Part shown: positions 5,930 through 7,648 of the stretch, in pieces
Numbering within the stretch: position 1 is the first letter of the stretch
How the letters are laid out: the number at the start of each line of letters is the position of its first letter
Assembly (NCBI GenBank): GCA_018883325.1
Contig: VEQH01000025.1
Coordinates: 1-48,735 of the forward strand
Source: Flavobacteriales bacterium
GTDB lineage: Bacteria > Bacteroidota > Bacteroidia > Flavobacteriales_D > Crocinitomicaceae
DNA length: 48,735 nt
Direction: 5' to 3'
Program-made: the position numbers and the translations under genes
The notes under the pieces: generated by a model
Database searches by the model: none
The model's input: the letters and a program-made list of their open reading frames with translations, nothing else
Told to the model about the DNA's origin: nothing

Positions 5930-5977
5930 CAAAAGTAACAATTAATCTTCAAAAGTTATATAGGTAAATTTACCCTA
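5930..5977 (-). promoter_or_regulatory. Promoter with palindromic activator site upstream of small lipoprotein gene
   Basis: Minus-strand -7 element TACTTTTG (complement of 5930-5937) matches TAnnTTTG, and the start codon at 5906 is about 24 nt further. The palindrome GGTAAATTTACC (5963-5974, within TAGGTAAATTTACCCTA) is centred 35.0 bp upstream of the -7 centre, near -42. There is no -33 TTTG at proper spacing, which fits dependence on an activator. The same arrangement occurs at 7601-7648. Confidence 0.65.
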
Positions 5978-5979
5978 TT

Positions 5980-6618
5980 TCACCTAAAATAGCCTTTCCT
6001 AAGAACAAAGAGAACCACTCCTGAAGTACTTGTTGTATTTGTTTTTTCCATAATGCGCAACTTATGTCCTTCCACAGTGCGACTACTTATAAATAATTCT
6101 TTTGCGATTTCTTTAGACGTTTTTTCTTTACAAAGGAGTTTGAGGATATCTATTTCTCTAGGCGTAAATTTTTCATTCATTTCCAATTCAAGATTAATCC
6201 TTTTCTGTTTTTCAGACTCTTCCATGGAATAAAATCCTTTATAATGAACACTCGTGATTGCATCCAATAAAATTGAAAAGTCACAATGTTTTGGTAAAAA
6301 ACAGGTTGCTCCCATTTTTAAAAGTGCATTTACAATCGATTCTGAAAAATAAGCACTCAAAATAATAACTTTAATATTTGGATTGATTTCTAAAATAATG
6401 GGTAAACAAGTTTCTCCATCCATTTTAGGCATATTCAAATCCAAAATCAAAACATCTAAGGGATTTTCTTTGACTTTTTCGACAAGCTCAATCCCATCTC
6501 CGACATTAAAAACAACTTCCAAATTTTCTTCACCTTCGAAAAGTAAAACAAGACCCTGCCTTAAAATTTGATGATCTTCTGCTATTGCAACTTTTATCTT
6601 TTCACCCTCGCTCACCAT
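5980..6618 (-). CDS. NarL/LuxR-family response regulator (orphan)
   Basis: A 212-residue two-component response regulator. The receiver domain (about residues 8-125) has acidic residues E14/D15, the phospho-acceptor D60 (LILDLNMPKMDG) and the conserved Lys in FLPKHCD. The C-terminal LuxR-type helix-turn-helix (about 148-205) reads FTPREIDILKLLCKEKTSKEIA, then SSRTVEGHKLRIMEKT. It is a cytoplasmic transcription regulator. No histidine kinase gene is adjacent. It lies 11 nt after the DUF2752 gene. Two flanking genes share a palindrome at -42; this protein is the likely binder. One copy of the palindrome sits immediately after its stop codon. Confidence 0.95.
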   Translation of the reverse strand: MVSEGEKIKVAIAEDHQILRQGLVLLFEGEENLEVVFNVGDGIELVEKVKENPLDVLILDLNMPKMDGETCLPIILEINPNIKVIILSAYFSESIVNALLKMGATCFLPKHCDFSILLDAITSVHYKGFYSMEESEKQKRINLELEMNEKFTPREIDILKLLCKEKTSKEIAKELFISSRTVEGHKLRIMEKTNTTSTSGVVLFVLRKGYFR

Positions 6619-6629
6619 GAAACTTAACT

Positions 6630-6956
6630 TTAGTATAACTTATCAAAAAATTTAAAATACGGTTTATTTATTAATTTACCTAGCAAATGAATCCAAAAAA
6701 GTAAAGCAATTGGAACAACCAAAAACGATAATTTATTAAATCCCCAAGCCTCTTTAAAATCTAAATGAATCAAATGCATCACCCCTCTTGTCAATCCACA
6801 ACCTAAACATTGTAGGTCAAACAGATAAACCGACAAACAAATACTTTCTCCACTATCAAAATAAGTTGAAGGTAGGAAAAGTAAAAAAAAAGGTCCTCCT
6901 AACAAAAGTAGTAGGAAGACCTTTTTTATAATTGATTTATTTTTATCTGTTTCCAA
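6630..6956 (-). CDS. DUF2752 family membrane protein
   Basis: A 108-residue inner-membrane protein with the DUF2752 signature (LQCLGCGLTRGVMHLIHLDF, usual form CPGCGxTRA) and hydrophobic segments at about residues 12-30 and 75-95. The function of the family is unknown. The start at 6956 overlaps the end of the YqaE-like gene by 14 nt. Codons about 11-23 coincide with a strong intrinsic terminator for the upstream gene (6889-6924), so full translation requires terminator readthrough. No other ATG gives a complete first membrane segment. The response regulator gene follows after 11 nt. Confidence 0.8.
   Translation of the reverse strand: METDKNKSIIKKVFLLLLLGGPFFLLFLPSTYFDSGESICLSVYLFDLQCLGCGLTRGVMHLIHLDFKEAWGFNKLSFLVVPIALLFWIHLLGKLINKPYFKFFDKLY
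6889..6924 (-). terminator. Intrinsic terminator embedded in the DUF2752 coding region
   Basis: Arms AAAGGTCCTCCTA (6889-6901) and TAGGAAGACCTTT (6912-6924) form a 13-bp stem with a 10-nt loop. The one non-complementary position becomes a G-U wobble in minus-strand RNA, and a T-run of nine or more follows (complement of 6883-6891). It terminates the YqaE-like gene (stop at 6943) but lies inside the next reading frame. Confidence 0.9.
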
Positions 6957-7575
6957 AAATAATCACTATTGCATGAATTAAACCTGGCAAACCACACAAA
7001 AATGTTAGGATTAAGTTAACAGTAACGCGACTTGTCCAACTTCCTTCATATAAATACATTGAAATTGTTGTACCAAAAGGAACCAACAACATTAAAAGTA
7101 TATATACCCAAGTCTCAGTTGAAGAACCTTTCTCATGAAACTTTTTCATTTTCATTTCAGCGATTGTTCCTTTGAATTTTTTGTTTGAAACTTTCGTTTC
7201 TTTCAAATTGTTCGTTGGTGCAACAATACTAACTTCTTTAGATTCAACTTTAGAACTCAATTTATTGTCAGTTGGTAAACTTGCTACAACAGAAATTTCA
7301 TCTGTAGAAGAAGCGAAATCAGTGCTTACTTCATTTGAATAAGCTGAAACATCGTTATTTGCCACAGACTCTTTCACTTTGACTTCTTTCACTTCAGCAA
7401 CTTCTTCCTCTGCTGATTCATAAGTAACTTTATTCTTATCTTTTTTATTTCCAATTGATGTATGATTCCAATTGACATTAAATCCTTTTCTGTGATAACG
7501 TTTTTGAACTGAACATGAGTCCAAGATTAGTGTCGACATAAATGCAACTACTAGCAGTAAACTTAACTTCTTCAT
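6943..7575 (-). CDS. Lipoprotein with C-terminal YqaE/Pmp3-like membrane domain
   Basis: A 210-residue protein. The N-terminus MKKLSLLLVVAFMSTLILDSC carries a lipobox-like end (C21). Residues about 40-150 are hydrophilic and of low complexity, rich in Glu, Val, Ser and Lys. The C-terminal 55 residues hold two hydrophobic helices whose second half (WTSRVTVNLILTFLCGLPGL, then IHAIVII) matches the YqaE/Pmp3 family of small stress-linked membrane proteins. It is likely an envelope protein bridging two membranes or anchored twice. Its promoter carries the same palindrome as the small lipoprotein gene, and a strong terminator follows. Confidence 0.8.
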   Translation of the reverse strand: MKKLSLLLVVAFMSTLILDSCSVQKRYHRKGFNVNWNHTSIGNKKDKNKVTYESAEEEVAEVKEVKVKESVANNDVSAYSNEVSTDFASSTDEISVVASLPTDNKLSSKVESKEVSIVAPTNNLKETKVSNKKFKGTIAEMKMKKFHEKGSSTETWVYILLMLLVPFGTTISMYLYEGSWTSRVTVNLILTFLCGLPGLIHAIVIIFGNR

Positions 7576-7600
7576 AATAAAATGTAATTTTTTTGTTTCT

Positions 7601-7648
7601 CAAATATAAGTTTAATTTCATTGCAAGCAATTAGGTAAAATTACCTGA
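7601..7648 (-). promoter_or_regulatory. Promoter with palindromic activator site upstream of the YqaE-like gene
   Basis: The minus-strand -7 element TATATTTG (complement of 7601-7608) is preceded at 19 bp by TTG (complement of 7628-7630). The palindrome AGGTAA-AA-TTACCT (7633-7646) is centred 35.0 bp upstream of the -7 centre. That is the same spacing as at the small lipoprotein gene (5930-5977), and the flanking bases are similar (TTAGGTAAAATTACCTGATT against ATAGGTAAATTTACCCTATT). Confidence 0.65.

Follow-up and report, generated by a model that had tools for sequence, protein, structure and literature searches.

The window, by which we mean the whole stretch of 48,735 nt that was analysed, contains a cluster of five genes, all on the minus strand. 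They form two apparent operons, each preceded by a palindrome and a TAnnTTTG box. The features are listed below in the direction of transcription.

7634-7645, minus: palindromic element GGTAATTTTACC, 5′ of the yqaE-like gene; the 14-mer AGGTAATTTTACCT at 7633-7646 is perfect
7601-7608, minus: -7 box TATATTTG of the yqaE promoter, 25 nt from the 12-mer palindrome
6943-7575, minus: gene for a lipoprotein-like protein with a YqaE/Pmp3 domain (Pfam PF01679, over cut-off); it opens the apparent regulator operon
6630-6956, minus: DUF2752 membrane protein (Pfam PF10825), with a 14-nt overlap with the yqaE-like gene
5980-6618, minus: NarL/LuxR-type response regulator, 11 nt after the DUF2752 gene; candidate binder of the element
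5963-5974, minus: palindromic element GGTAAATTTACC, 5′ of the lipoprotein gene; the 14-mer is GGGTAAATTTACCT, with one mismatch to AGGTAN4TACCT
5930-5937, minus: -7 box TACTTTTG of the lipoprotein promoter, 25 nt from the 12-mer palindrome
5685-5906, minus: gene for a small lipoprotein rich in cysteine; it opens the second operon
5641-5666, minus: terminator-like hairpin and T tract between the lipoprotein and thioredoxin-like genes
5033-5626, minus: thioredoxin-like protein with a membrane anchor and CPYC; the start codon (~5626) was picked by eye

Database homologues of the yqaE-like gene are named YqaE/Pmp3 family membrane protein [Crocinitomicaceae bacterium], which points to the Crocinitomicaceae as the probable family. 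The lipoprotein matched the NCBIfam PG1828 family only far below the cut-off, and the Pfam thioredoxin matches of the thioredoxin-like protein were weak and also below it. The hairpin at 5641-5666 may make the lipoprotein more abundant.

Read in the sense of the genes, the two palindromes have the core GGTA-N4-TACCTA (TAGGTAAATTTACC at 5961-5974 and TAGGTAAAATTACC at 7632-7645), and no third exact match was found in the whole 48,735-nt window. At the lipoprotein palindrome a G replaces the first A of AGGTA-N4-TACCT. GGTA-N4-TACC is separated from TAnnTTTG by exactly 25 nt at both promoters; a gap of 25 nt counted from this 12-mer equals 24 nt counted from the 14-mer AGGTA-N4-TACCT. The preliminary description had reported a palindrome shared by the lipoprotein and yqaE-like genes. 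This observation was confirmed, both palindromes matching the described pattern exactly and having a TAnnTTTG box at an equal gap, and the interpretation placed on it was in part supported.

The centres of palindrome and box lie 34-35 bp apart. With the box at -12 to -5, its position in the sigma-A promoters of Flavobacterium psychrophilum described in PMC9723704, the palindrome would be centred at about -43.5 in the window and at about -42.5 where the gap from 14-mer to box is 23 nt. Of the earlier proposal of a site near -42, the activator position, equal at both promoters, was retained, and the centre moved to about -43.5 on that numbering of the box (PMC9723704). The geometry fits a class II site, in which an activator site is found near -41.5 at a fixed distance. 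No TTG is present 19 nt 5′ of the box in the lipoprotein promoters, in agreement with the earlier remark that the lipoprotein promoter has no -33 box. The yqaE promoter has such a TTG in the window's own genome (G000) and in one close relative (G068), and lacks it in another (G055).

Chance expectation was estimated by simulation of the window, and by using reversed patterns as controls for pattern counts in genomes, including G000 (4.06 Mb). In 400 Markov simulations the palindrome alone arose 0.015 times per simulated window, against two real copies, and GGTA-N4-TACCTA followed by the box never arose. The preliminary description had argued that such identical geometry was unlikely to be due to chance. 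When up to two mismatches were allowed, the window contained six matches (at four places, two of them on both strands) against 1.13 expected, and none of 100 shuffles reached six. The only two mismatch-free occurrences in the 4.06-Mb genome of the 12-mer followed by 25 nt and TAnnTTTG are those of the window. Looser patterns gave little. TAGGTAAAWTTACC with at most one mismatch had 16 matches in G000 against 19 controls, the 12-mer with 25 nt and box 46 against 57 at up to three mismatches, and the 14-mer with 23 nt and box 220 against 329 in four genomes, also at up to three. GGTAN4TACCTA with 23 nt and box, at up to two mismatches, had 24 matches against 13 controls in three genomes. Perfect 14-mers counted irrespective of a box numbered 8, 3 and 3 in G000, G055 and G068 against 4, 3 and 5 controls (14 versus 12), and 13 of these 14 lie outside long ORFs. 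It therefore appears that the excess is confined to perfect or near-perfect sites with a box, and only these were used.

Relatives of the cluster were sought by a contig scan and by searching 86 genomes of the same genus (E 1e-30). The regulators of G055 (contig C4) and G068 (C19) are 75-76% identical to that of the window and gene order is kept; no other full-length regulator relative above 43% identity was found in the 86 genomes at this threshold. A protein collection held further relatives at 73-79% and 52-58% identity, without genomic context. The 25-nt gap is present in all six promoters of G000, G055 and G068, and the lipoprotein elements differ from the 14-mer by one mismatch in G000 and G055 and by two in G068. 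Both operons are kept in G055. The G068 locus is without the yqaE-like gene and has only a remnant of DUF2752; the palindrome promoter stays, directly 5′ of the regulator, and its 14-mer begins 157 nt ahead of the first ATG of the regulator gene. A search for the motif upstream of orthologues, as the preliminary description had suggested, thus found both elements kept in G055 and G068 with unchanged spacing.

We compared four lipoprotein-type promoters with three yqaE-type promoters. The set of four included a copy on contig C42 of another genome of the genus, G062, and left out that of G013, where the spacing is one base shorter. Identity between the two types was 83% in the palindrome and 81% in the box, against 24% in the spacer and 43% in the upstream 15 bp. 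Since palindrome and box are alike and the spacer is unlike, these are elements common to both promoter types and not a duplicated region. Within the four lipoprotein promoters the contrast was weaker (palindrome 82%, spacer 70%).

The regulator has a receiver domain (PF00072, 1.4e-22) and a GerE helix-turn-helix domain (PF00196, 4.2e-15), both over the cut-off, and so belongs to the NarL/FixJ class. Its best solved chain is 5hev_A, and the best PDB chains are of VraR/LiaR, DesR and NarL type. Alignment to 5hev_A showed that the phosphoacceptor Asp and the conserved Lys are present (LDLNMPKMDG opposite MDLVMEEMDG, and FLPK opposite YLLK). The helix-turn-helix alignment does not single out this regulator on specificity. 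Judged from its sequence and setting, the response regulator at 5980-6618 is the best single candidate for the binder, because it is of NarL type, the element resembles the 4-nt-spaced inverted repeat of ComA, and the palindrome promoter of G068 lies directly before it.

No kinase was recognised beside the regulator or in its operon. A kinase search covering four genomes (G000, G055, G068 and G062) yielded related HisKA_3 kinases encoded behind 7TM-like genes in G000:C112 (L294), G055:C45 (L292) and G068:C50 (L291). There is no regulator beside the kinase in G000 and G068, and the G055 contig ends inside the kinase gene; G062 has two such kinases, both beside other regulators. The stretches flanking the three candidate kinases, 1.5 kb or less on each side, contained no palindrome with up to two mismatches. 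A conserved protein of about 100 aa is encoded beside kinase-regulator pairs in three genomes (L293, L295 and L300).

A relative of the thioredoxin-like gene is present in 76 of the 86 genus genomes. We examined the loci of 30 of these and recognised the lipoprotein gene upstream in 26; the other four (L229, L230, L236 and L238) were dropped. Among the loci examined, the element precedes the lipoprotein gene in all three regulator-bearing genomes and in one of 23 others, G013 (P = 0.0015, which is overstated, the three carriers being related). The G013 assembly is 86% complete in about 650 contigs, and its best regulator match is 30% identical. G062 encodes two lipoprotein/thioredoxin-like pairs, of which the C10 copy is without the element. 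The C42 pair has a near-copy of it, and the adjoining regulator remnant comprises residues 163-212 only. Over the 1.2 kb of this C42 piece (L257; regulator remnant, lipoprotein and thioredoxin-like gene) identity to G068 is 98%, and in a neighbouring stretch of 1.1 kb it is 81%. The piece was probably exchanged recently, and is therefore not independent evidence.

The perfect 14-mer with a box at 22-25 nt occurs at 12 sites in seven of the 86 genus genomes, against one control match. Nine of the 12 precede genes whose products, judged by eye, seem to begin with a signal peptide or a lipoprotein signal, one precedes the regulator (G068), and two, in G007 and G014, have no ORF of at least 60 aa within 400 nt. 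The palindrome and box, which are the same at these last two (L155 and L157), perhaps serve a small RNA or a short gene. Seven of the 12 sites lie in the three regulator-bearing genomes, three of the seven being at the regulator's own operon; outside that operon the figure is four of nine. Perfect sites are also present in G062, G013, G007 and G014, where no full-length regulator relative above 43% identity was found. Two G000 targets have G062 homologues with the site, at a gap of 23 nt in both genomes. One is a protein with a type B sorting domain (76% identity over 205 N-terminal residues), the other an exported protein (51% identity). Ten proteins encoded behind perfect 14-mers were scanned and five had type IX sorting domains over the cut-off (L167, L170, L175, L177 and L178), with a perfect box only at L167 and L178. 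Of the five-gene envelope regulon envisaged earlier, the element shared by both operons stands, and the possible regulon is wider, with exported and partly type IX-secreted proteins. Two similar exported-protein genes lie about 19 kb apart in G000:C84 (L152 and L153), each with an identical perfect palindrome; no clear -7 box was found at the usual distance from either.

We propose that AGGTA-N4-TACCT is a class II activator site, centred about 42.5-43.5 bp before the transcription start, at which a phosphorylated dimer of the regulator would activate both operons and a few exported proteins. A centre there lies in the region used by class II activators. An unlinked kinase, for which the HisKA_3 kinase of G000:C112 is the candidate, would phosphorylate the regulator, and the phosphorylated dimer would most likely bind the palindrome. 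Bound there, it would bring RNA polymerase to the operon that encodes it (with the genes for the YqaE-like lipoprotein, the DUF2752 protein and the regulator), and the same dimer would recruit polymerase to the lipoprotein and thioredoxin-like operon and to the genes of the few exported proteins. Autoregulation together with control of the lipoprotein pair would be the simplest circuit for the candidate regulator. What we observed is the element with its geometry, conservation and distribution; the activation, the binder, the kinase, the signal and any role in 'envelope stress' are inferred. We give this reading an even chance of being correct, slightly discounted because the operon of the regulator itself supplies three of the seven sites and because the G055 kinase gene runs into the end of its contig. 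An operator of fixed geometry, with a candidate regulator and kinase and with targets across species, makes a directly testable regulon of envelope and secreted proteins.

Alternatively, a genuine activator site could be bound mainly by a different transcription factor, one kept more widely in this bacterial family, with the response regulator simply encoded between two of its targets. Such a factor would account for the wide occurrence of the perfect 14-mer with a box, which we found 30 times among 240 genomes of the family (in 20 of them) against four control matches, including genomes in which no close relative of the regulator was found. Of these sites 26 are not within an ORF of more than 120 aa, where 19% would be expected at these loci. 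From 14-mer to box the distance is nearly always 23 or 24 nt (18 and 8 sites; 22 and 25 nt at two sites each). The regulator was searched for across the family at E 1e-45 among the best 12 or fewer candidates per genome, and for 23 of the 30 sites none of those candidates in the same genome exceeded 44% identity. In G062, moreover, which has no intact copy of the regulator, the promoters of two homologous targets are kept. In such genomes the site is either used by additional regulators or is that of a different factor altogether. Set against a second, widely kept factor is the way in which the element before the lipoprotein gene tracks the regulator, together with the 79 of 86 genus genomes that contain no perfect site with a box. 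Sites in other genera precede mixed target genes, and many have other inner bases, of the TATTTATA type; these may belong to a different factor again. Eight genomes of other genera have regulators 39-44% identical among the matches listed, and only G230 has a perfect site with a box, before an apparently unrelated gene (by eye, for a pyruvate dehydrogenase subunit). Around these regulators no palindrome with up to one mismatch was present in six of the seven stretches sampled (G172 being outside the sample), and the seventh had one perfect copy with no clear box (L300:3908, in G223). That copy, TAGGTATTTATACCTA, lies between a second regulator gene and an operon of 7TM protein, kinase and regulator, the regulator being 39% identical. 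A site found in three genomes between sucC and a second gene (L025, L118 and L119; GGTAAATGTATCTA) was rejected, as one of its halves carries a mismatch and the sucC-like gene, which is divergent, begins 17 bp beyond it. Overall, we consider a different main binder a real possibility, somewhat short of even.

A broader possibility is that an undescribed activator element and its regulon extend through the whole bacterial family, probably the Crocinitomicaceae, with one dimeric factor at -43 switching on surface and type IX-secreted proteins, envelope lipoproteins and the response-regulator operon. This we advance tentatively and hold to be rather unlikely; if true, the family-wide regulon would give the exported proteome its own dedicated layer of control.

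Repression is a further alternative, in which the palindrome is an operator and the bound factor blocks polymerase at the overlapping -33 region with no activation. The site does extend into that region, and the yqaE promoters of G000 and G068 have the TTG. The lipoprotein promoters, however, are without it, and the restriction of the gap to 23 or 24 nt at 26 of 30 sites fits polymerase contact better than simple blocking, so that repression seems improbable. Finally, we rejected as most implausible the notion that the palindromes act in RNA, as terminating hairpins of the preceding genes, and not in promoters. Each does directly follow a stop codon on the same strand (palindrome 1 that of the regulator, palindrome 2 that of an ACP phosphodiesterase gene), but folding is predicted to be weak (-6.0 kcal/mol with z -1.0, and -7.2 kcal/mol with z -1.9), neither appeared in the terminator scan output, and element and box persist next to a divergent upstream gene (L182, G013).

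To our knowledge, only a small number of transcription-factor sites have been described in those Bacteroidota whose promoters are of the TAnnTTTG type, and a literature search that included spellings of the operator's sequence found no paper naming it. For an activator site that the response regulator would bind, the nearest comparisons are with two-component systems. Like regulators of VraR/LiaR type, the protein has receiver and GerE domains; unlike them, it has no recognised kinase in its operon and comes from a different phylum. Its best solved relatives are of VraR/LiaR type, whose targets are envelope-related like those of the candidate circuit here, and the VraR/LiaR binding site differs from the palindrome described here. 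In enterobacteria yqaE is under CpxR, so that there, as in the candidate circuit here, a yqaE/Pmp3-type gene has two-component control. CpxR is of the OmpR class and recognises a direct repeat, whereas the present regulator is NarL-type and the element an inverted repeat. The sigma-A promoters of F. psychrophilum are similar in having the TAnnTTTG box at -12 to -5; that study concerns sigma-factor motifs, and 'palindrom' is absent from its main text (PMC9723704). ComA of Bacillus subtilis, a NarL-family regulator, binds an inverted repeat with an optimal spacer of 4 nt according to PMC4797271. Its half-site is TTGCGG, its promoters add a direct repeat, and it belongs to another phylum (PMC4797271). 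With AGGTA/TACCT in place of TTGCGG, the element is therefore not a ComA site; what it has in common with the ComA operator is a 4-nt-spaced inverted repeat upstream of the promoter and a regulator, here a candidate, of the NarL family (PMC4797271).
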